From NCBI GenBank assembly GCA_002255925.1, contig NKIH01000001.1, positions 248,001 to 312,000 on the forward strand: DNA of 64,000 bases, read 5' to 3'. The notes under the pieces were generated by a model. The model did no database searches, was not told the origin of the DNA, and saw only the letters and a list, made by a program, of their open reading frames with translations. Shown here in pieces: positions 3,801 to 19,786 of the stretch. How positions within the stretch are numbered: position 1 is the first letter of the stretch; each line of letters opens with the position of its first letter. The translations under genes were made by a program, and so were the position numbers. Source of the DNA: Burkholderiales bacterium PBB6 (GTDB lineage Bacteria > Pseudomonadota > Gammaproteobacteria > Burkholderiales > Burkholderiaceae_C).

Positions 3801-4679
3801 TCAGGCCATCTTGCCGGCCTGGAAGTCTTCCACGGCCTGGTAGATCTGTTCGCGGTTGTTCATCACGAACGGGCCGTACTGCACGATCGGCTCCTTCAGC
3901 GGCTGGCCGGCGATCAGCAGGAAGCGCGCGCCCTCTGGACCGGCCTGCAGCGCCACGCCGTCGCTGCCGGGCGTGTTGGCCAGGATAGCCATGCGCTGCG
4001 TGGGCACCGCCTGCGTGCCGATCTGCACACCGCCGCGGTAGACCTGCACGAACGCGTTGTGGTGCTCGGCCAGCGGGTGGCTGAAGCTGGCGCCTGCGGG
4101 CAGGTGCACGTCCAGGTACAGCGGCTCGGTGACCGGGCGCTGCATGGCGCCGGCCACACCGGCGTGGTGGCCGGCGATCACGCGCACTACGCTGTCGCCG
4201 CTGCGAACTTCGGGAATGGTCTCCGTCTGGATGTCGACATAACCCGGGTCGCAGAGCTTGTCCTTGGCGGGCAGGTTCAGCCAGAGCTGGAAGCCCTCCA
4301 TCACGCCTTCTTCCTGCTCAGGCAGCTCGCTGTGGATGAGGCCGCGGCCGGCGGTCATCCATTGCACGCCGCCGTTGCTCAACAGGCCTTCGTTGCCGGC
4401 TGAATCGCGGTGGCGCATGCGGCCGGCGATCATGTAGGTCACGGTTTCGAAGCCGCGGTGCGGGTGGTCGGGGAAGCCGGCGATGTAGTCATCGGGCTTG
4501 TCCGAGCCGAAGGCGTCGAGCATCAGGTAGGGGTCAAGCCGGCGCTGCAGGTCTTGCGTCAGCACGCGCGTCAGCTTGACGCCGGCGCCGTCGCTGGTGG
4601 CCTGGCCGGTCACCACGCGCTCCACGGTGCGGGGGTGCAGCACGGTGGTGGCGGTGGTGTCAGCTGTGGTCGTGGTCAT
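3801..4679 (-). CDS. Pirin family protein (YhaK/quercetinase-like)
   Basis: Cupin-fold pirin of 292 residues. The N-terminal cupin has the family signature around DDYIAGFPDHPHRGFETVTY, RMRHRDSAGNEGLL and WMTAGRGLIHSELP, which supply the usual His/Glu metal ligands. The C-terminal half is the second cupin. Pirins of this group can have quercetin 2,3-dioxygenase activity or act in redox responses; the real substrate here is unknown. The ATG at 4679 is preceded by AAGGAC at good spacing, so it is chosen over one ten codons upstream. It starts only 22 bases after the azoreductase stop on the same strand, so the two form an operon, divergent from a LysR regulator. The pairing suggests quinone or electrophile stress (inference). 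Confidence 0.9.
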   Translation of the reverse strand: MTTTTADTTATTVLHPRTVERVVTGQATSDGAGVKLTRVLTQDLQRRLDPYLMLDAFGSDKPDDYIAGFPDHPHRGFETVTYMIAGRMRHRDSAGNEGLLSNGGVQWMTAGRGLIHSELPEQEEGVMEGFQLWLNLPAKDKLCDPGYVDIQTETIPEVRSGDSVVRVIAGHHAGVAGAMQRPVTEPLYLDVHLPAGASFSHPLAEHHNAFVQVYRGGVQIGTQAVPTQRMAILANTPGSDGVALQAGPEGARFLLIAGQPLKEPIVQYGPFVMNNREQIYQAVEDFQAGKMA

Positions 4680-10971: not shown

Positions 10972-11104
10972 GCCGCACGCAGCGGGCCAGCGGCGGGGCT
11001 GGCATCGGGGCCGCAGTCGCCAGTCATGCGCGTTTTCTGCCGTTCATGCGGTGCGGCCTGCCGTTCGCCCATGGGGTGTGTTGGCAGCGCCCGGCGCCAC
11101 CACA

Positions 11105-12685
11105 ATGGCCGGCATGAGAACCTCATCCCGTTCCAACACCCGCCCCACAGCCTGGTCCGCCAGCTGGGGCCTGAGCCTGGTCATCGTGCTGCTGGCCAAT
11201 CTCTCGCCATCGTCCTCACGGGCCGCAGCAGACACCGTGGGTGCCAGCCCGCCCCGGCTTGAACTCTCGGCCTGTCGCCTCAAGGGCGTGGCGCATGAAG
11301 CCCGCTGCGGCGTGCTCAAGCGCCCGTTGAACCCGGCTGAGCCGGCGGGCGCGCAGATCGATGTGCATGTGGCCGTGCTGCCCGCCCTGGCGCGCAACAA
11401 GCTGCCCGATCCGGTGCTGATGTTTGCCGGCGGCCCGGGGCAAAGCGCCATCGAGCTGGCCGGCCCGGTCAGCCAGCAGCTGGGCCGTTTCCTGAACCGC
11501 CGCGATCTGGTGCTGATCGACCAGCGCGGCACGGGCCAGAGCGCCCCGCTGCGCTGCGAGGACGCCGAATCCACCCGCAGCAGTCGCCTGCAGGACATGC
11601 TCGACCCCAGCGCCGAAGACCGCCGCACCCTGGCCTGCCTGACGCGGCTGAAGGCGCTGCCCTACGGCGACCTGCGCTACTTCACCACCACCATCGCGAT
11701 GCAGGACGTGGAAGCGGTGCGGCTGGCGCTGGGCCTGGGGCCGATCAACGCGATTGGCGGCTCGTACGGTACGCGGGCGGTGCTGGAGTACCAGCGCCAG
11801 TTCCCTGACAGCGTGCGCCGCGCGGTGATCGACGGTGTGGCGCCGCCCGACATGGTGCTGATGCGCTCGATGTCCACCGACGTGCAGGCCGCGTTCGATG
11901 CGCTGCTGGCGAGTTGCGCGCAATCGCCCGACTGCCAGCGACGCTACCCGGACCTGGCCGGCCAATGGCGCAAGCTGCTGGGCAGCCTGCCGCGCGAGGT
12001 GACGCTGGAGCATCCGATCACCGGCCAGCCGGAGCGGGTCACGCTGACGCGCGACGCGGTCATCACGCTGATCCGCACGCCGCTGTATGCGCCGATGCTG
12101 GCGGCCGCACTGCCTCTGGCCATCAGCGAGGCAGCCAACGGCCGCTTCATGCCGCTGCTGGGCCTGGGGCTGGGCAGCATCGGCGGTGGGCGGGGCATGG
12201 GCTTGTCCACCGGCATGCACTTCTCGGTGGTGTGTGCCGAAGACCTGCCGCGCCTTGCCACGGCCACGGATGTGCCCGGCGGTGACGTGGGCCAGGGCAA
12301 TGAAAACATGTACCGGCGCGTGTGCTCGCAGTGGCCGCAGGGCGTGGTGCCGCCGGCGTTCTACAGCGTGCCTGCGGCGCGCCATCCGGTGCTGCTGCTG
12401 AGCGGCAGCCTCGACCCCGTGACGCCCCCGCGCCATGCCCAGCGCGTGGCCGGTTTGCTCGGCCCGCAGGCCGCGCAGGTGGTGGTGCCCAACGTGGGCC
12501 ACGGCGTGATGGGTCTGGGCTGCGTGCGCGATGTGGTGTACCGATTTGTCGACCAGCCGAACCCCGCCAAGGCGCTGGCTGACGTGAAGACCGATGCGGC
12601 CTGTGCCGCCAATCTGCCTCGCCCGCCGGCCTTCGTGCCGGTGGGGGCAGCAACGGCCGTGACCGCCGGGGAGGGCGCCAAGTGA
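11105..12685 (+). CDS. Exported alpha/beta hydrolase (tripeptidyl aminopeptidase-like)
   Basis: Protein of 526 residues with a signal sequence (hydrophobic core WGLSLVIVLLANL). Hydrolase features are LMFAGGPGQSA (oxyanion region), LVLIDQRGTGQSAP, the nucleophile elbow GGSYGTRA with Ser near residue 220, the acid in LLLSGSLDPVTPP, and the catalytic His in PNVGHGVMG. This order matches the secreted proline-iminopeptidase / tripeptidyl aminopeptidase group (S33). A second ATG at 11114 is an equally plausible start. Its stop overlaps the GTG start of the next gene, so translation is coupled with the ABC exporter genes; the hydrolase may act on the exporter's substrate, or the link may be only co-expression. 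Confidence 0.88.
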   Translation: MAGMRTSSRSNTRPTAWSASWGLSLVIVLLANLSPSSSRAAADTVGASPPRLELSACRLKGVAHEARCGVLKRPLNPAEPAGAQIDVHVAVLPALARNKLPDPVLMFAGGPGQSAIELAGPVSQQLGRFLNRRDLVLIDQRGTGQSAPLRCEDAESTRSSRLQDMLDPSAEDRRTLACLTRLKALPYGDLRYFTTTIAMQDVEAVRLALGLGPINAIGGSYGTRAVLEYQRQFPDSVRRAVIDGVAPPDMVLMRSMSTDVQAAFDALLASCAQSPDCQRRYPDLAGQWRKLLGSLPREVTLEHPITGQPERVTLTRDAVITLIRTPLYAPMLAAALPLAISEAANGRFMPLLGLGLGSIGGGRGMGLSTGMHFSVVCAEDLPRLATATDVPGGDVGQGNENMYRRVCSQWPQGVVPPAFYSVPAARHPVLLLSGSLDPVTPPRHAQRVAGLLGPQAAQVVVPNVGHGVMGLGCVRDVVYRFVDQPNPAKALADVKTDAACAANLPRPPAFVPVGAATAVTAGEGAK

Positions 12686-13512
12686 TTGATGTTCAGGATC
12701 TGCGCAAGCGCTTTGTTCAAGGCAGCGGGCGCCGCAAGCAGACGGTGCTGGCCGTGGACGGTGTGAACTGGCGTGCCGAGGACGGTCGCATCACCGGCTT
12801 GCTGGGGCCGAACGGCGCCGGCAAGACCACCACGCTGCGCATGGTGGCCGGCTTGATCGAGCCCGATGGCGGCACGGTGGTGGTCGACGGCATCGATGTG
12901 GCCAGCCAGCCGCGCGCGGCGCTGGCCCGCATGGGCGTGCTGTCTGATGCCCGAGGCCTCTACCCCCGGCTGACCGCACGCGAGAACGTGGTTTATTACG
13001 GCCGCCTGCACGGCATGAGCGGTGCTGATGCCAACCGGCGTTGCATTGAGCTGGCCGGTCTGCTCGACATGCAGGGCCTGCTGGACCGCCGCACCGACGG
13101 CTTCAGCCAGGGCGAACGCATGAAGACCGCGCTGGCGCGGGCGCTGGTGCACAACCCGCCGAACATCGTGCTTGACGAGCCCACCAACGGGCTGGACGTG
13201 CTGGCCACCCGCGCCCTGCGCGACACCCTGCGCCGGCTGCGTGACGAGACCGGCAAGTGCATCGTTTTTTCGAGCCACATCATGCAGGAGGTGGAACGCC
13301 TGTGTGACCACGTCGTGGTGGTTGCCCATGGCCGCACGGTAGCGAGCGGCACGGTGCCGGGCCTGCTGGCGCAGACCGGGCAGACGGATTTTGAAGAGGC
13401 CTTTGTCAGCCTGGCTTTCGGGGCTGGGGCGGCTTCGAGCCATGGTGTGGCCAACAGCACGGACAACAGCATGGGCACGCACGCCGCGTCGGCCCCGAAG
13501 GAGCAGGCATGA
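12682..13512 (+). CDS. natA: ABC exporter ATP-binding protein (NatA-like)
   Basis: ATPase of 276 residues. The Walker A motif is GPNGAGKTTT, the signature region is FSQGERMKTALARAL (a variant of LSGGQ), and Walker B is NIVLDEPTNGLD; the switch His is in IVFSSHIMQEVERLC. It starts with GTG at 12682, overlapping the previous stop, and ends overlapping the permease ATG at 13509. The pairing with a NatB-type permease suggests a Na+ or drug-type exporter, but the true substrate is not evident. The last ~35 residues are a low-complexity tail. Confidence 0.9.
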   Translation: MIDVQDLRKRFVQGSGRRKQTVLAVDGVNWRAEDGRITGLLGPNGAGKTTTLRMVAGLIEPDGGTVVVDGIDVASQPRAALARMGVLSDARGLYPRLTARENVVYYGRLHGMSGADANRRCIELAGLLDMQGLLDRRTDGFSQGERMKTALARALVHNPPNIVLDEPTNGLDVLATRALRDTLRRLRDETGKCIVFSSHIMQEVERLCDHVVVVAHGRTVASGTVPGLLAQTGQTDFEEAFVSLAFGAGAASSHGVANSTDNSMGTHAASAPKEQA

Positions 13513-14672
13513 ACATCGGATGGCAAGTGTTCCTGAAGGAGCTCAAGGACGCCCTGCGTGACCGGCGCACCCTGATGGCCGTGCTGATGAGCTCGGTGAT
13601 GATGGGCCCGCTTATGCTGTTCGCGTTGTCGACGCTGGTCGAAGGCATGGAGAAGCGGGCCGAGGCGCGCGAGGTGTTCGTGGCGGGCATCGACAACGCA
13701 CCGGGCCTGCGCAACTACCTGGAGCGCCAGACCTGGAAGGTGCTGCCCGCGCCGGCCGACTACGAGCGGGCGCTGGAGCGCAGCCAGCTGGGCGATCCGG
13801 TGCTGGTGGTGGCCAAGAATTTCGAGGCGGACCTGGTGGCCGGCGAGCGGCCGCTGCTGGAGATCGTCACTTCGAGTGCCAATCAGCGGGCTGACGGTGC
13901 GGCGGGCCGGCTGGAGGACCTGGTGCAGGGTTATGCCCGCGAGCAGGCTGGCTTGCGCCTGATGGTGCGCGGCGTGGCGCCGATGCTGCTGCAGCCGATG
14001 CAGGTGGAGCGGCGTGACCTGGCCAACCCGGCGGCCCGCGCTGCCCGCCTGACCGGCATGCTGCCCTTCTTCGTGCTGATGGCGGTGCTGTATGGCGCGC
14101 TCAATGCGGCGCTCGACACGACGGCCGGTGAGCGCGAGCGAGGCTCGCTGGAGCCGCTGTTGATGAATCCGGCCACACGCCTGTCGCTGGTGGTGGGCAA
14201 GTGGGGTGCGGTGGCGGCGGTGGGCATGCTGGTGGCCATCCTGTCGTCACTCAGCTTTCTGCCCAGCCAGATGCTGTTCAAGAGCGAGCAGCTGGCGGCG
14301 CTGTTCCGCTACGACTGGCCGGAGGCGCTGGCCTTCCTGGGTCTGCTGCTGCCGCTGGCCGGGGCCCTGGCCGCGGTGCTGATGGCCATCGCCATCCGCT
14401 GCAAGACCTTCAAGGAAGCCCAGGCCAGCAGCACGGTGGTGGTGCTCGTGGTGTCGCTGTTGCCCATGCTCACGCTGTTCAACCAGGACGGCGAAAAGCC
14501 GTGGCACCTGTGGGTGCCGGCGCTGGCGCAATCGACGCTGATGTCGCGCGTGTTGAAGGGCGAGTTCATCAGCACCACCGACATGCTGGTGCCCGCCGCG
14601 GCCTGCGCGGTGCTGGCCACGGTGTGCGTGGTCTACATCGCACGGCAGTTCCAGACAACGGCCGTGCGTTGA
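13509..14672 (+). CDS. natB: ABC exporter permease (NatB-like)
   Basis: Membrane protein of 387 residues, ABC-2 type. One N-terminal transmembrane helix (TLMAVLMSSVMMGPLMLFAL) is followed by a ~140-residue extracytoplasmic domain. Then come five or so C-terminal helices, including GMLPFFVLMAVLYGALNAAL and GMLVAILSSLSFL. The segment ERERGSLEPLLMNPATR is the hallmark coupling motif of this permease family. Its ATG overlaps the stop of the ATPase gene, so they form one complex. NatAB of Bacillus exports Na+; here the substrate is inferred only by family. Confidence 0.88.
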   Translation: MNIGWQVFLKELKDALRDRRTLMAVLMSSVMMGPLMLFALSTLVEGMEKRAEAREVFVAGIDNAPGLRNYLERQTWKVLPAPADYERALERSQLGDPVLVVAKNFEADLVAGERPLLEIVTSSANQRADGAAGRLEDLVQGYAREQAGLRLMVRGVAPMLLQPMQVERRDLANPAARAARLTGMLPFFVLMAVLYGALNAALDTTAGERERGSLEPLLMNPATRLSLVVGKWGAVAAVGMLVAILSSLSFLPSQMLFKSEQLAALFRYDWPEALAFLGLLLPLAGALAAVLMAIAIRCKTFKEAQASSTVVVLVVSLLPMLTLFNQDGEKPWHLWVPALAQSTLMSRVLKGEFISTTDMLVPAAACAVLATVCVVYIARQFQTTAVR

Positions 14673-14738: not shown

Positions 14739-15155
14739 TCAGGCCCGTTTCAAGGCTTGCCAGACGGCGTCCTGCCAGGGCAGTGCGCGTACCAGCCGGC
14801 TGAAGTGCAGCGCGGATTCGCGCGGTGTCAGCACCTCGCCCTGGTCGCTCACCAGCCGCAGATTGGTGACCACGCACATGGGGTCGGCCATGGCCAGCAC
14901 CCCTTGGTCAATCTGCACCCAATCCCAGGCCAGGCCGGCATCGGTGTGGCCGCTGCATTCGCCCCAGATCGTCTGCCCGGTGGAGGGGCGCGAGCGGTCG
15001 CCGAAGGTGGTGATGCGCGTACCCAGATGCACAAACCGTAATTGTTCTCGCGCGTTTGCCTGACAGAATACGGCAGGCCACGAATACAAGGACCAGGGAG
15101 GTGGCATGGTCATGTCCTGGACGTGCTGCAAGATGGAGTTCTTTGTCGTCTGCAT
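14739..15155 (-). CDS. Uncharacterised protein divergent from the LuxR-type regulator
   Basis: Protein of 138 residues if started at 15155, or 124 from the ATG at 15113. Codon use is typical and the frame is clean. It is Trp-rich (WSLYSWPAVF, TIWGECSGH, GLAWDWVQI) and has no signal peptide or membrane helix. I recognise no family. A lux-box-like palindrome centred at 15200 lies just upstream. If used as a class II site it would place transcription start near 15158, which favours the 15113 start. It may therefore belong to the quorum-type regulon next door (inference). Confidence 0.7.
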   Translation of the reverse strand: MQTTKNSILQHVQDMTMPPPWSLYSWPAVFCQANAREQLRFVHLGTRITTFGDRSRPSTGQTIWGECSGHTDAGLAWDWVQIDQGVLAMADPMCVVTNLRLVSDQGEVLTPRESALHFSRLVRALPWQDAVWQALKRA

Positions 15156-15190: not shown

Positions 15191-15210
15191 AGCTGTAAGA
15201 CCTGTCAGGG
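15191..15210. promoter_or_regulatory. lux-box-like palindrome upstream of the LuxR-type gene
   Basis: The core CTGTAAGACCTGTCAG (15193-15208) has CTG/CAG ends and the conserved TGTAAGA half of the lux box. It is identical at 13 of 16 positions to the second box at 15979-15994. It sits between two divergent genes, 55 bases before the luxR-type ATG and about 40 bases before the divergent gene's first ATG, so it could serve either or both. Confidence 0.65.
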
Positions 15211-15262
15211 CGCCTCGTCGGGCGCCGGCAGGGGTGCGGGTGTTGAGACCTTGGGGGTGTGC

Positions 15263-15976
15263 ATGCTGAGCGGCAGTTATCTGTCGGTCATGGAAGCGCA
15301 GACCCAGGAGCAGTTCCGTGACCGCATCGTGCGGTTCGCCCAGGAGCTGGGCTTCGACTATGTCTCTGCCATGACGGTGGTGGACCACTCCCTGTCGCAC
15401 TCGGAGTTCATCAACGTCGACAACATGCCACAGGCGATGGTGGACGCTGCGGCATCGGCCACCACCTACCGGCGTGACCCCGTGATGCAGCACTGCAAGC
15501 GCGGCACCGTGCCCATCATCTGGGACCAGACCACCTACGTGAACCGTGGCGTGCCTGAGCTTTGGGAAAACCTCGCCGAGCATGGTTACCGCACCGGCAT
15601 TGCCCTGGCCATGCACTTCCCGGAAGGGCGGCATTTCACGATGGGTGTGGACCGCTCCGAAAACCTCCCCGGGAATGCTGGCGATCTCACCCGGATGGTG
15701 GCTGACTTGCAGTTGTTTGCCGTGCACGCGCAAGATGCAGCGATGCGACTTTTTGTGCCGGCAGAGCTGCAGCTGGAACGCCCGAAATTGACGCCCCGCG
15801 AGCTGGAAGCGCTGCGCTGGACCATGGAAGGCAAGACGGCCTGGGAGGTTGGCAGCATCCTCGGCATCAGTGAGCGCACGGCGGTGCTGCACATCCAGAA
15901 TGCCATGCACAAGCTGGACGCCATCAACAAGCACCAGGCGGTGCTGAAGGCCCTGCGGCTGGGGCTGATCCACTGA
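15263..15976 (+). CDS. LuxR-type regulator with autoinducer-binding domain (solo)
   Basis: Regulator of 237 residues. Residues ~10-165 resemble the acyl-homoserine-lactone binding domain: Asp72-Pro73 in YRRDPVM, Trp87 in PIIWDQ and Gly112 in YRTGIAL are at family positions. The residues expected to be Trp and Tyr upstream of Asp72 (13 and nine positions back) are Met59 and Ala63. The C-terminal helix-turn-helix is canonical: LTPRELEALRWTMEGKTAWE, VGSILGISERTAVLHIQNAM, KLDAINKHQAV. No luxI-type synthase gene is present in the window. The gene ends at a lux-box-like palindrome and is followed by a leader-bearing peptide and its exporter genes, which it probably activates. The ATG at 15263 is preferred over one 30 codons upstream, which would read through the first box. 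Confidence 0.9.
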   Translation: MLSGSYLSVMEAQTQEQFRDRIVRFAQELGFDYVSAMTVVDHSLSHSEFINVDNMPQAMVDAAASATTYRRDPVMQHCKRGTVPIIWDQTTYVNRGVPELWENLAEHGYRTGIALAMHFPEGRHFTMGVDRSENLPGNAGDLTRMVADLQLFAVHAQDAAMRLFVPAELQLERPKLTPRELEALRWTMEGKTAWEVGSILGISERTAVLHIQNAMHKLDAINKHQAVLKALRLGLIH

Positions 15977-16023
15977 CCCTGTAAGAGTTGACAGTGTCGT
16001 GATCGGGAGTGGCTTGGTTCAAT
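15977..16023 (+). promoter_or_regulatory. lux box and extended -10 promoter for the peptide/exporter genes
   Basis: The palindrome CTGTAAGAGTTGACAG (15979-15994) has perfect CTGT/ACAG arms and matches the 20-bp lux-box consensus at most positions. TGGTTCAAT at 16015-16023 is an extended -10 (TTCAAT, four of six). This predicts a start near 16030 and puts the box centre at about -43, the class II activator position. A perfect hairpin GCGCTG-GAA-CAGCGC (16032-16046) follows at the predicted 5' end. The peptide ATG is at 16069. Confidence 0.7.
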
Positions 16024-16068
16024 GACGCCATGCGCTGGAACAGCGCTTCAACGTTTCGGAGAACCACC

Positions 16069-16227
16069 ATGACCCAGTCCCTGATTGCCCTGATCCGCCG
16101 TGTTTTTGTCGCTTCGTCGCAGCCGGCTGCCGTGCCTGCCGGCAAGGTGCACCGCGAGCTGAGCGCCGAGGAACTCCGCAGCGTGTCTGGCGCTGGTGAA
16201 GTGAGCCTGCCGGGCCGCGGCTGGTAA
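16069..16227 (+). CDS. Small peptide precursor with double-glycine-type leader
   Basis: Precursor of 52 residues; ATG at 16069 with GGAG seven bases upstream. Residues 31-42 (LSAEELRSVSGA) match the C39 leader consensus position by position: Leu -12, Ser -11, Glu -8, Leu -7, Val -4, Gly -2, Ala -1. Cleavage after Ala42 would release GEVSLPGRGW, only ten residues with Pro, two Gly, one Arg and a C-terminal Trp. Such a short product is more like a signal peptide or modified peptide than a classical bacteriocin. The following genes encode an HlyD adaptor and a C39-peptidase exporter, which would cleave and export it. In-frame ATGs at 16009 and 16027 exist but precede the predicted transcription start. 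Confidence 0.8.
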   Translation: MTQSLIALIRRVFVASSQPAAVPAGKVHRELSAEELRSVSGAGEVSLPGRGW

Positions 16228-16254
16228 GTCGTCCGAGCTGTTGTCGACAAGCGC

Positions 16255-17535
16255 GTGCCGCTGTTTCGACCTGAATCCCTCCACAACCGGCAACAGGCCT
16301 GGCTTGGCAGCATCCATGTGATGCAGCCGGTCGGCCTGCGCAGGTTGATGTTCGGGGTGCTCGCTGCGCTGGTCGCGGTCAGCACCCTGCTTTTTTTGGG
16401 CGAAGCCAGCCGCAAGTCGCGCCTGAGCGGCGTGCTGGTGCCGGACCGCGGCTTGATGCGCGTGGTGTCGCCGCAGGCGGGCACCGTGCTGGCTGCCGCC
16501 GTGCAGGAAGGGCAGCTGGTGCGGGCCGGTGATGTGCTGTTCACCGTGCAGCTGGCGGCCGCGCAGTTGAGCCAGCAGGCCCAGGCCGGCTTGCAGCAAA
16601 CCTTCGACCACCGCAGTGACAGCCTGGCGCTGGCGGCTCGCCATGCGGCGGCCCTGAGTGCCGAGCGCCTGCGTGGGCTGGGGGAGCGCGTGGAGGCGCT
16701 CAAGCGCGAGTTGCAGCAGACGGACGCGCAGGCGGCACTGCAGCAGCAGCGCCTGGTGCTGGCTGAAAAAGCCCAGTCCCGGCTCGAAGCGCTGAACAGC
16801 GAGCAGTTCATTTCGTCCGCCCAGGTGCAAGCCAAGGCCGAGGAGGTGCTGGCGCTGCGCGCAGAAGCCGCGGCCGTGGCCCGCCAGCGGCAGACGCTGA
16901 TGCGTGAGCTGGGCGCGCTGGAAGCGGAGCGTCGGGAGGCGCCGCTGGAGACCGCCCAGAAGCAGGGCGAGCTGGCCCGTGAGCAGGCCGAGATCGCCGA
17001 AGCGGCGGCCCGTGCCGACGCGGCCAGTGCACAAACCCAGATCGTGCTGCGTGCGCCGGTGGACGGCACGGTGACCGCCGTGCATGTGCTGCCCGGCCAG
17101 GCGGTGGGCACCGACGTGGCGCTGGCGAGCGTGGTGCCGCAGGGCGCCGTGTTGCAGGCGCACCTCTACGCACCCAGCAGCGCGCTGGGTTTTTTGCAGG
17201 TGTCGCAGGCGGTGCAGATGCGTCTGCAGGCCTATCCGTACCAGCAGTTTGGTTTGCAGCCGGGGCGGGTGGTCAGCGTGGCGCAGGCGCCGGTGCAGGC
17301 CGCTGAGCTGGCCACCGTGCCGCTGGCGGTTCGGCCTGCGGCGCAGGAGCCGGTGTACCGGGTGACGGTGGCGCTGGAGCCGGGTGAGCTGGTGGTGCGC
17401 CAGGCGGCAGGCCCGCAGCCCATGCCCCGGCGCCTGCTGCCCGGCATGCAGCTGGAGGCCGACGTGGTGCTGGAGTCGCGTCGCCTGGGTGCCTGGTTGT
17501 TTGAGCCTCTGCTGGGTTTGGCGCGCCGTGGTTAG
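16255..17535 (+). CDS. HlyD-family periplasmic adaptor of a peptide exporter
   Basis: Membrane fusion protein of 426 residues, starting with GTG at 16255, 27 bases after the peptide stop. Order: short cytoplasmic N-terminus (PLFRPESLHNRQQAWLG, typical of bacteriocin-export adaptors), one transmembrane helix near residues 32-48, a first lipoyl half (VSPQAGTVLAAAVQEGQLVR), a long coiled coil (residues ~105-250, rich in Ala, Glu, Gln, Arg), the second lipoyl half (LRAPVDGTVTAVHVLPGQ), and a beta-barrel region. It links the inner-membrane exporter encoded next to an outer-membrane TolC-type channel, which is not in this window. Confidence 0.92.
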   Translation: MPLFRPESLHNRQQAWLGSIHVMQPVGLRRLMFGVLAALVAVSTLLFLGEASRKSRLSGVLVPDRGLMRVVSPQAGTVLAAAVQEGQLVRAGDVLFTVQLAAAQLSQQAQAGLQQTFDHRSDSLALAARHAAALSAERLRGLGERVEALKRELQQTDAQAALQQQRLVLAEKAQSRLEALNSEQFISSAQVQAKAEEVLALRAEAAAVARQRQTLMRELGALEAERREAPLETAQKQGELAREQAEIAEAAARADAASAQTQIVLRAPVDGTVTAVHVLPGQAVGTDVALASVVPQGAVLQAHLYAPSSALGFLQVSQAVQMRLQAYPYQQFGLQPGRVVSVAQAPVQAAELATVPLAVRPAAQEPVYRVTVALEPGELVVRQAAGPQPMPRRLLPGMQLEADVVLESRRLGAWLFEPLLGLARRG

Positions 17536-17560
17536 TGGGTTGAACGAGCGGGGCTCAGAC

Positions 17561-19786
17561 GTGGACGGCGACAGCATGCGTGACGCCGCCGCCTCGTCGC
17601 CCGGTTGGCTGCAGCGGCTGGGGCAGCGGCGTGGCCGCGTGCCGCTGGTGCTGCAGTCGGAAGCCGCCGAGTGCGGCCTGGCTTGCCTGGCGATGGTGGC
17701 CGGCGCGCACGGCCTGGACACCGATCTGCAGACCCTGCGCCAGCGCTTCCAGTTGTCGCTGAAAGGCGCCACGGCGGCGGATGTGTCGGAGATGGGCTCT
17801 GCGCTGGGCCTGGCGCCGCGCGCCTTGCGCTGCGAACTGGCTGACCTCGACAAGCTGCATCTGCCCTGCGTGCTGCACTGGAACCTCAACCACTTCGTGG
17901 TGCTGGTGGCGGTACGGCGCGGCGTGCTGACGCTGCACGACCCCGCGCGCGGTGTGCGCCACATGTCGGTGGCGGCGGCCTCGCCGCACTTCACCGGCGT
18001 GGTGCTGGAGTTCACCCCGACAGCGTCCTTCCAGCCCCGCCGCGACCGCCAGCCGGTGCGCCTGCGGCAACTGCTCGGGCCGGTGCACGGCCTCAAGCGG
18101 GCCTTGGGGCAGGTGCTGCTCCTGGCGCTGGCGCTGGAGTTTTTCGTGATGCTGTCGCCCCTGCTGCTGCAGCAGGTGGTGGACGGCGTCCTGGTGACGG
18201 GTCAACGTGAGTTTATGCTCACTCTCGGTATCGGCTTTGGTGGGCTGGTGCTGTTCCAGGTGCTGGCCGCGGGTGCGCGCTCATGGGCGCTGATGTATCT
18301 GTCGTCCAGCCTGAAGCTGCAGTGGCTGGGCCAGGTGTTTTCTCACCTGCTGAAATTGCCGCTGGCCTGGTTCGAGCGGCGCCAGACGGGCGATGTGTGG
18401 TCGCGGTTTGCGGCGGTGCATGAGATTCAGGACAAGCTCACCACGCAGTTCGCCGAAGGACTGATCGACGGCGTGATGGTGCTGTTCTGCCTCGGTCTGA
18501 TGTGGCTGATCAGCCCGCTGCTGAGCGCCGTGGCCCTGGCCGCCGTGCTGCTGTATGCGCTGGTGCGTTGGGCCTTGGCGGGGCCGATGCGCGAGGCCAC
18601 CGAAGAAGCGCTGGTGCATGACGCGAAAAAGTCGACACACTTCCTGGAGAGCCTGCGCGGTGTGTCGGCCATCAAATTGTTCAATGCCCAGGCGCAGCGC
18701 CAGTCGCGCTTCATGAACCTGGTGGTGGACGCCATGAACGCCGACCTGACGCTGCGACGGCTGGAGTTGCGCCTGGCGCTGGCGCACCGCGGCCTGTTCG
18801 GGCTGGAGCGGGTGGCAGTGGTGTGGCTGGGCGCGCTGGCGGTGCTCGACGGCGGTTTGTCCACCGGCTTGCTGTTCGCCTTCCTGGCGTACCAGGAGCA
18901 GTTCGCCACTCGCACCAGTGCCTTGATCGACAAGCTGGGTGAGCTGCGTTTGCTGAAGGTGCAGGCCGATCGCCTGGCCGACATCGTGCTCACCGCGCCC
19001 GAGCACGATGGCAGCGTGCTGGCGCGCTCGCCAAAGGCGGCTGATTGCGAAGGGCGGCTGGAGCTGCGCGACGTGCACTTCGCCTACAGCGATCTGGAGC
19101 CTGAGGTGCTGCGCGGCGTGAGCCTGTGCATCGAGCCCGGTGACAGCGTGGCGATCGTCGGGCCGTCGGGCTGCGGCAAGACCACCTTGCTCAAGCTGCT
19201 GCTGGGCGTGCATGTGCCCACGGCGGGGGAGGTGTGCATGGACGGCCGGCCACTGGCGCATTGGGGCCTGCGGCCTTGGCGCGAGGCGTTGGGCGCCGTG
19301 CTGCAGGAGGAGCCGCTGTTCGCCGGTTCCATCGCCGACAACATCGCCTTTTTCACCCCCGAGACCGACATGGACTGGGTGCGCACCTGTGCCCGGATGG
19401 CGTCGGTGCTCGACGACATCGAGGCGATGCCGATGGGCTTTCACACCCTGGTGGGCGACATGGGTGCTGCACTGTCAGGTGGGCAGAAGCAGCGCATCCT
19501 GCTGGCGCGGGCCTTGTACCGGCGCCCGCGTGTGTTGCTGCTGGATGAGGCCACCAGCGCGCTGGATGTGGACCGTGAACGGCTGGTGAACCGCGCTGTG
19601 CAGCAACTGCAGCTGACGCGGATCATCGTCGCTCACCGGCCCGACACCGTGGCCAGCGCTGACCGCGTCATCGTGCTCAGCGAAGGGCGGGTGGTGCAGG
19701 ACTTCCGGCGCGTGCCGGGTGTGGGCGCGGAGGCGGGTTCCGAGGCGGGCGCTGGGTCAGGCGCTGTGTCCGGCGCTGCGGCTTGA
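17561..19786 (+). CDS. Peptidase-containing ABC transporter (C39 type, bacteriocin/peptide exporter)
   Basis: Protein of 741 residues from the GTG at 17561; an ATG at 17576 is also possible. Order: N-terminal C39 peptidase with Gln32 and catalytic Cys38 in LQSEAAECGLACL, His111 in LNHFVVL and Asp127 in LHDPARG, so the protease looks intact. Then a six-helix ABC transmembrane domain (~residues 165-460). Then the ATPase with Walker A GPSGCGKTTLL, signature LSGGQKQR, Walker B VLLLDEATSALD and the switch His in IIVAHRPD. It would cleave double-glycine-type leaders on the cytoplasmic side and export the mature peptide. Its likely cargo is the peptide encoded at 16069, and it works with the HlyD adaptor directly upstream. 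The C-terminus ends in a low-complexity Gly/Ala/Ser tail. Confidence 0.95.
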   Translation: MDGDSMRDAAASSPGWLQRLGQRRGRVPLVLQSEAAECGLACLAMVAGAHGLDTDLQTLRQRFQLSLKGATAADVSEMGSALGLAPRALRCELADLDKLHLPCVLHWNLNHFVVLVAVRRGVLTLHDPARGVRHMSVAAASPHFTGVVLEFTPTASFQPRRDRQPVRLRQLLGPVHGLKRALGQVLLLALALEFFVMLSPLLLQQVVDGVLVTGQREFMLTLGIGFGGLVLFQVLAAGARSWALMYLSSSLKLQWLGQVFSHLLKLPLAWFERRQTGDVWSRFAAVHEIQDKLTTQFAEGLIDGVMVLFCLGLMWLISPLLSAVALAAVLLYALVRWALAGPMREATEEALVHDAKKSTHFLESLRGVSAIKLFNAQAQRQSRFMNLVVDAMNADLTLRRLELRLALAHRGLFGLERVAVVWLGALAVLDGGLSTGLLFAFLAYQEQFATRTSALIDKLGELRLLKVQADRLADIVLTAPEHDGSVLARSPKAADCEGRLELRDVHFAYSDLEPEVLRGVSLCIEPGDSVAIVGPSGCGKTTLLKLLLGVHVPTAGEVCMDGRPLAHWGLRPWREALGAVLQEEPLFAGSIADNIAFFTPETDMDWVRTCARMASVLDDIEAMPMGFHTLVGDMGAALSGGQKQRILLARALYRRPRVLLLDEATSALDVDRERLVNRAVQQLQLTRIIVAHRPDTVASADRVIVLSEGRVVQDFRRVPGVGAEAGSEAGAGSGAVSGAAA

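Follow-up and report, generated by a model that had tools for sequence, protein, structure and literature searches.

The window analysed here is a stretch of 64,000 nucleotides from Burkholderiales bacterium PBB6 (contig NKIH01000001.1, positions 248,001 to 312,000), and we examined a locus within it where a luxR-type gene is followed by a gene for a short peptide precursor and by the genes of a C39-type peptide exporter. The order on the plus strand from 15263 is luxR (15263..15976), a 52-codon precursor gene (16069..16227), hlyD (16255..17535) and a C39-peptidase ATP-binding cassette (ABC) exporter gene (17576..19786). A sequence-only reading of the stretch had reported this consecutive order of LuxR solo, leader-bearing precursor, HlyD adaptor and C39 exporter, and Pfam matches and open reading frames (ORFs) bear out all four, with the Cys, His and Asp motifs of the peptidase present as judged by eye only. 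The LuxR protein has autoinducer-binding and GerE domains (Autoind_bind, 1.9e-23; GerE, 6.1e-15), has no linked luxI and lacks LasR-type Y56, W60 and Y64 in its ligand domain; ATG 15263 is its likely start, since 41 distinct sequences (window included) align from there with L2 invariant. The HlyD-type membrane fusion protein matches HlyD_3 (6.4e-15) and HlyD_D23 (9.1e-10), and the exporter matches Peptidase_C39 (1.8e-30), ABC_membrane (4.6e-37) and ABC_tran (7.9e-31), with ATG 17576 as its likely start in a frame that is open farther upstream.

The 52-residue precursor reads MTQSLIALIRRVFVASSQPAAVPAGKVHRELSAEELRSVSGA followed by GEVSLPGRGW, and GGAG lies 5' of its ATG at 16069. Its leader is of the GA type, and the leader motif predicts that C39 cleavage would release the core GEVSLPGRGW (16195..16224, plus strand), which ends in LPGRGW (16207..16224, plus strand), a hexapeptide conserved in the alignment of relatives as xPxxxW. 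No match above cut-off was found for the precursor in Pfam or NCBIfam; matches to lantibiotic-type precursors were weak, below cut-off and mainly over the leader (Mersacidin in Pfam, 0.032; NCBIfam, 0.028-0.085), and were set aside. Between luxR and the exporter the window holds no gene beyond the precursor and hlyD and no immunity-like gene, and a ribosomally synthesized and post-translationally modified peptide was rejected because that interval has no modifying-enzyme gene. No TolC-type channel is among the genes read between luxR and the exporter, and no genome-wide search for one was made.

The sequence-only reading missed two lux boxes, a divergent RsaM-like gene and the hexapeptide, rather than a ten-residue peptide, as the conserved unit. 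The RsaM-like gene (14739..15155, minus strand) matches Pfam DUF4902 below the gathering cut-off (E 0.0041, 17.5 bits against 25), and at a cut-off of E 1 all 16 aligned RsaM-like sequences match it (best 5.1e-6). A PDB sequence search with the single protein gave chance matches only, and a profile search gave 4o2h, an RsaM homologue, at E 0.04; the AlphaFold2 model (pLDDT 84) had the same entry as its top Foldseek match (E 1.5e-4, probability 1.00, TM 0.62). The gene product has the BcRsaM fold in this model, and the gene is adjacent to luxR. LuxI (PF00765) was found in none of the 16 genomes of the window's genus, and 14 control genomes were also negative, though a search of the family finds LuxI elsewhere: 7 of the 87 family genomes with a LuxR orthologue carry a strong LuxI, at least about 190 kb away where both lie on one contig.

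A hexapeptide conserved among relatives

Relatives came from an exporter-based scan of genome contigs, in which the best 80 of 260 loci were examined; the window's genus (16 genomes) was searched whole. Divergent rsaM followed by luxR, a gap, hlyD and the C39 gene is present in records named Ideonella (among them Ideonella paludis KCTC 32238, L061), Methylibium, Rhizobacter, Piscinibacter, Roseateles, Aquincola, Azohydromonas, Rivibacter and others. After 3 duplicates were removed from 45 relatives' luxR-hlyD gaps, the 42 distinct gaps and that of the window made 43 untruncated gaps, and a precursor is present in 42 of them, all except L055. The earlier reading had proposed a search for the same gene order and an alignment of the peptides, and held that it would fail if relatives lacked a small ORF between luxR and hlyD or a conserved leader; the order recurs, and both ORF and leader are kept.

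The leaders of the 42 precursors fit the C39 rule, with L or M at −12 and −7, V or I at −4, G at −2 (42 of 42) and G (35) or A (7) at −1, and they stand beside a C39 ABC protein and an HlyD adaptor. From the predicted cleavage point, 0-10 unconserved residues lead to between one and five copies of a core motif, [LSGA]-P-[K/R/N]-x-[G/T]-W or something close to it. The six-residue form occurs in 41 of the 42 loci, giving 43 hexapeptide entries in which P and W are invariant; residue 1 is L (18), S (10), G (8) or A (7), and residue 3 is K in 17, N in 10 and R in 9. The core at L049 is LPRVGGW, one residue longer. Tryptophan is C-terminal in 39 of 42 precursors, 10 of 42 carry at least two copies (L074 has five of GPNGGW), and single-copy cores measure 6-14 residues in 32 of 42 loci and up to 25 elsewhere; at L084 the predicted cleavage would free exactly six residues. 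Codon differences are mostly silent within the hexapeptide, with 20 synonymous against 3 nonsynonymous among all pairs of repeat copies and 12 against 3 among five close-relative pairs (three inside one trio), and in the rest of the precursor the same five pairs show 57 against 56. A Shine-Dalgarno-like site precedes 40 of 42 precursor starts, against about 6 by the same test farther upstream.

The pattern of an ATG ORF ending in the motif finds all 42 precursor loci against 0.7 expected from dinucleotide shuffles; the antisense strand gives a match in 1 of 42, and 20 LuxI-linked luxR genes give none. This pattern and that for the second-clade micro-ORFs described below were written post hoc, and shuffles and controls were scored with identical patterns. 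A profile built from 19 precursors and run on 399 family genomes matched 57 of them once each, and 55 of these matches lie directly 3' of a LuxR orthologue (the others are G185, at a contig break, and G249:C18, elsewhere). LuxR orthologues at or above 56% identity were counted in 87 family genomes, leaving out a partial match in G157, and 30 of these have no profile match, three of which (G009, G225, G355) proved on reading to have precursors. The other 27, the luxR locus of G249 and G185 gave 29 luxR stretches to read, 3 of them cut by contig ends. The 26 complete ones hold 19 leader-bearing precursors with a W-ending or W-bearing core, 4 leaderless hexapeptide ORFs, 2 leaders with a W-less core (L257, L273) and 1 with nothing (L262); 3 of the 26 duplicate loci of the first set (contigs of L051, L071 and L089). 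The ten-residue peptide put forward by the sequence-only reading is the predicted core after GA. Judged from these alignments, what is conserved is the hexapeptide xPxxxW, which is present one to seven times and which some relatives keep without leader or exporter.

Some further loci were also noted. In the window's genus, L044, L045 and L046 (G001, G013, G002) have a C39 exporter of 51% identity together with a long GG-type (double-glycine) precursor rich in Gly, Trp, Cys and His, and no LuxR was found within the stretch read. Three to five LuxR paralogues are arrayed at L229, L230, L231, L232 and L233 (G110, G225, G081, G210, G355); the extra copies share R or K instead of L at position 209 of the recognition helix, so they may read other DNA sites. 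At L244 and L248 (G168, G249), more distant LuxR/RsaM pairs are followed by precursors that have a GG leader and a long, Pro-rich core with W at its end; an exporter was not detected beside them.

Lux boxes and probable control by LuxR

The two lux boxes of the window flank luxR and share a 16-bp form, CTG-N10-CAG: CTGTAAGACCTGTCAG (15193..15208) lies 5' of luxR and predicts autoregulation, and CTGTAAGAGTTGACAG (15979..15994) lies 5' of the precursor gene. A box between luxR and precursor is found in all 42 precursor loci (1.67 expected from base shuffling), 83-99 nucleotides before the precursor start in 40 of them, and a box 5' of luxR in 36 of 41 loci (1.6 expected). The strict pattern CTGTMAGANYTGWCAG has 19 sites across the 16 genomes of the genus, against 1 for the reversed pattern, and its two occurrences in the window's genome (G000) are both at this locus. 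From this placement LuxR very probably drives both the precursor gene and its own, and for the precursor gene the sequence makes LuxR control close to certain. The earlier proposal of a short, secreted and LuxR-controlled signal is upheld as far as sequence can carry it, by the lux box and by the conserved small ORF with its leader.

A wider regulon was considered and rejected for the window's genome, where the strict box is confined to the locus; with up to two mismatches there are 35 matches, against 8 for the reversed pattern. Elsewhere in the genus, a strict box precedes a 2-oxoglutarate-dehydrogenase-E1-like gene (by Pfam for two) at L147, L149 and L151 (G004, G008, G010). At L148 (G004) a strict palindromic box at about 4376-4445 lies 5' of a gene for a thermolysin-type (M4) protease, which is a possible LuxR target judging from that box.

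Forms without leader or exporter

The four leaderless cases all belong to one genus, g12, of which 21 genomes were searched; LuxR was found at E 1e-60 in 16 of them, at 20 loci. Among the 15 loci with LuxR of the window's type, 13 carry a box followed by a 10-62-codon ORF that has no GG leader and ends in xPxxxW, such as MQVLLPRNAW, MQATHQTQTTTLLPRNGW, an ORF with three LPKSGW copies (G422) and one with seven GPRGTW copies (L290, in G417). The hexapeptide ORF at L284 has no findable ATG. No hlyD or C39 match was found within the 1.5 kb read at the leaderless loci, and exporter matches at E 1e-120 are absent from 13 of the 15 g12 genomes searched, with G417 and G157 having ones at about 51%. 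The hexapeptide is thus kept in g12 without leader or exporter, which suggests that it outlives both, and its leaderless, presumably intracellular form is more readily explained as a LuxR ligand than as a weapon for export. The LuxR tree has a clade of 22 proteins (support 0.66) in which 8 come with an exporter and 14 do not; these 14 form one group of 11 (support 0.85) and another of 3 (support 0.95). This nesting makes loss of the exporter in that clade likely.

A second clade of LuxR/RsaM pairs, at roughly 40-50% identity and elsewhere in the family, has neither the CTG box nor an exporter and is not recovered as a single group in the same tree. An ATG micro-ORF with [LFI]-P-[RKTY]-x-G lies 92-175 nucleotides 3' of luxR in 14 of the 15 loci read (0.06 expected; 0 of 20 LuxI-linked luxR controls), and the peptides, all leaderless, include FPRTGGW, LPRGGGW, LPKTGGWA and FPRTGW. 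L245, the locus without a micro-ORF, also showed no rsaM. A palindrome, CTA-N10-TAG, lies between luxR and micro-ORF in 9 of 15 loci (0.15 expected; controls 3 of 20), and recognition-helix residues differ between the two clades (for example L versus F at 209). No micro-ORF of this form was found at five LuxR loci from other subgroups. In G002, of the window's genus, a second-clade pair with its micro-ORF occupies the chromosomal place of the window's locus, beside CRP-like and gidA-like genes, and has no adjoining exporter. The locus in the window appears from these comparisons to be the exported form of a larger LuxR-RsaM-micropeptide module, which confirms and enlarges what was first read there.

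A candidate peptide receptor and its alternatives

LuxR proteins are textbook receptors of small diffusible lactones, and the ligand of many LuxR solos is not known. In TraR, the residues that contact the N-acyl homoserine lactone (AHL) are W57, Y61, D70 and W85 (PMC10134790). Among the 41 distinct LuxRs aligned here, the position of LasR Y56 is T, A, M or another residue and never Y, that of LasR W60 (TraR W57) is Y in 22, F in 11, W in 4, M in 3 and L in 1, and that of LasR Y64 (TraR Y61) is mostly F or A (27 of 41); LasR D73 and W88 (TraR D70 and W85) are kept in all 41. The AHL-contact set is thus not conserved as a whole in the family, with TraR residues mapped through LasR numbering, a correspondence we take to hold. 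The marks of the PipR/OryR subclass, W57M and Y61W (PMC10134790), do not occur together here either, as the window protein has M and A at these positions and the family mostly Y or F and F or A.

We compared covariation with the peptide column by column, with entropy matching, between LasR-pocket columns and other columns of the ligand domain. The core covaries with the pocket columns across 69 loci (p 0.0002) and after thinning to 46 (p 0.0006); the covarying LuxR columns are 55, 59, 63, 69, 100, 114 and 126. Across the 41 loci with a leader and a six-residue core, the core again covaries (p 0.0007), through positions 1, 3 and 4, and the leader residues of these precursors show no such link (p 0.69 and 0.70). 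When 1063 variable columns of LuxR, RsaM, HlyD and C39 were compared over 37 loci, the excess of the pocket with the core was highest (reached by 0 of 5000 random sets), and HlyD and C39 columns showed no raised covariation with the core. This column covariation, with its null leader control, points indirectly yet specifically to recognition of the hexapeptide by the pocket, and suggests that LuxR is probably the receptor of the peptide as well as its regulator; the role assigned to LuxR by the sequence-only reading, as regulator of the peptide gene, stands on the lux box and is in that respect incomplete. A precedent, in our view, is PipR: this LuxR homologue answers Ser-His-Ser and depends on a peptide transporter (PMC4981722).

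Several observations weigh against a peptide-binding LuxR with this module as its circuit. A hexapeptide is larger than an AHL, and the list of LasR-pocket positions used in the tests is one we presume correct. Core position 5 alone is unlinked to the pocket across the 41 loci (p 0.74), and a slight excess is also seen in the remaining ligand-domain columns (p 0.036). RsaM columns show an excess with the core as well as with the leader. These results indicate that shared ancestry contributes. A partial Mantel test on the whole matrix did not single out the ligand domain (ligand-binding given DNA-binding domain, p 0.061; the reverse, p 0.006), and the column-wise tests with leader control followed it as a second look at the same data. 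No LuxR target beyond the module itself is known in the window's genome. No precursor was seen at L262 or at L288 and L289, the last two being g12 loci with LuxR of the window's type; L257 (G208) and L273 (G400) keep box and HlyD (and L257, when checked, its C39 exporter) with a tryptophan-less core, LPRVGGLGG...; and L055, the lone precursor-less gap, keeps HlyD, C39 and box with hlyD directly after the box. In positions 1-520 of L055 the box CTGTAAGACCTTGCAG is immediately 5' of hlyD, and an ATG there gives MLPRNAF before the frame runs on, which is possibly a precursor remnant; one deletion of this kind shifts the odds little.

With these points counted, the sequence comparisons make it likely that LuxR has the hexapeptide as its own ligand, a signal whose gene LuxR controls and which stands in for a LuxI product. 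With its altered pocket, LuxR would bind the box 5' of the precursor gene and the second box 5' of its own gene, and the GA-type leader would bring the precursor to the C39 exporter to be cut after Gly-Ala, as in the families concerned. GEVSLPGRGW would then leave through HlyD and an unlinked TolC, and peptidases may trim it to LPGRGW, where Pro at position 2 would block ordinary aminopeptidases. The peptide could re-enter cells, perhaps by a general oligopeptide permease, and bind the LuxR pocket, closing a feedback loop in keeping with the pocket-core covariation, and the RsaM-like protein may tune this loop, the part that RsaM plays in AHL circuits. Where a relative has neither leader nor exporter, the hexapeptide would be produced and used inside the cell. 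On balance we also favour the broader view that these loci form a peptide-based branch of LuxR quorum sensing, in which the cognate autoinducer is a genome-encoded xPxxxW peptide, a micro-ORF replaces LuxI, the C39 form acts between cells and the leaderless form within the cell, and repeats raise the dose. A TAP-like alpha/beta hydrolase gene and a two-gene ABC-2 transporter (Pfam) lie upstream of the RsaM-like gene in window numbering, at 11051-14672, and in many relatives too; the hydrolase is a possible peptide-trimming or clearing enzyme, or its place may be plain synteny.

Another reading, which we hold to be unlikely, is that the peptide inhibits LuxR (or RsaM) inside the cell as a negative-feedback micropeptide, and that the window's lineage lifts the inhibition by exporting the peptide. 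Leaderless forms exist, pocket covariation indicates recognition and not its sign, and RsaM was first reported as regulating an AHL system negatively, according to the title of a 2011 study listed in PMC10710839; against this, a dedicated cleaving exporter and multi-copy precursors would suit a released signal better than waste removal. It is less probable still that LuxR senses some other, outside molecule and that the secreted peptide is an output to neighbours or hosts. LuxR solos that answer exogenous molecules are on record (PMC10134790), but leaderless, exporterless hexapeptides remain beside LuxR and under its box, and the core covaries with the pocket where the leader control is null.

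Very little speaks for a short bacteriocin or microcin with its own exporter under LuxR control. C39/HlyD exporters often carry bacteriocins, and a scan of 48 exporter-bearing loci outside the tabulated set, which sought leaders only and would let leaderless ORFs escape, detected GG precursors in 18, all with ordinary longer cores. Class II microcins and bacteriocins have a core of tens of residues and an immunity gene, which this module does not show: its single-copy cores are 6-14 residues (up to 25 elsewhere), its luxR-exporter interval has no immunity-like gene, and the hexapeptide is retained where the exporter is gone, and we rejected the bacteriocin reading on the last two grounds. The least credible explanation is that the small ORF encodes a ribosome-arrest leader peptide or acts as a translational attenuator, with Pro and Trp as sensing codons, as the motif proline and the Trp beside the stop codon might suggest. 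It was rejected on the tandem hexapeptide copies (five at L074, seven at L290), which, like a C39 leader, would be pointless in an arrest peptide, and g12 has no exporter gene 3' of the ORF.

The reading of the hexapeptide as LuxR ligand can be set against known systems. The module shares leader, C39 ABC exporter and HlyD with GG pheromones and microcins exported by C39 proteins, and differs from them in its 6-14-residue single-copy cores with xPxxxW, its LuxR regulator and its exporterless versions. RRNPP receptors have a tetratricopeptide-repeat fold, and RRNPP signals leave by Sec export. The present module, with a LuxR protein as the candidate receptor and C39 export in Gram-negative hosts, differs from the RRNPP systems of Firmicutes (PMC10075063). 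A divergent rsaM beside a luxI-less luxR is shared with the type 6a RsaM-LuxR solo pairs of Pelomonas, Kinneretia, Albitalea, Thauera and Xenophilus (PMC10710839). In the available text on type 6a, peptide, ABC, transporter and secretion are absent as words, and it accordingly gives no description of a precursor, micro-ORFs or an exporter. PipR and OryR are likewise LuxR homologues deaf to AHLs and responsive to a peptide (PMC4981722), but theirs is an exogenous peptide, flanking pip genes are a further mark of their subclass, and no cognate peptide gene is described in the text available; PluR and PauR are LuxR solos that answer a self-made non-AHL molecule (PMC10134790). In the parts available, a 2023 survey of LuxR solos lacks the words HlyD, Ideonella, Rubrivivax and Methylibium (PMC10134790), a 2026 review of LuxR protein partners lacks peptide and RsaM (PMC13043044), and a 2026 quorum-sensing review lacks RsaM and PipR (PMC13220807). 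No description of the module was found among the matches listed in open-licence literature, a scope outside which most subscription papers and preprints fall.

If this reading is true, the LuxR fold has become a receptor for peptides, and its signal is gene-encoded and comes in many sequences, by a logic akin to that of the RRNPP systems of Gram-positive bacteria. Testable ligands could then be read from DNA for dozens of LuxR solos, and RsaM-LuxR solo pairs would be offered a role. The family would also provide a natural series, within one receptor family, from secreted to apparently intracellular signalling.

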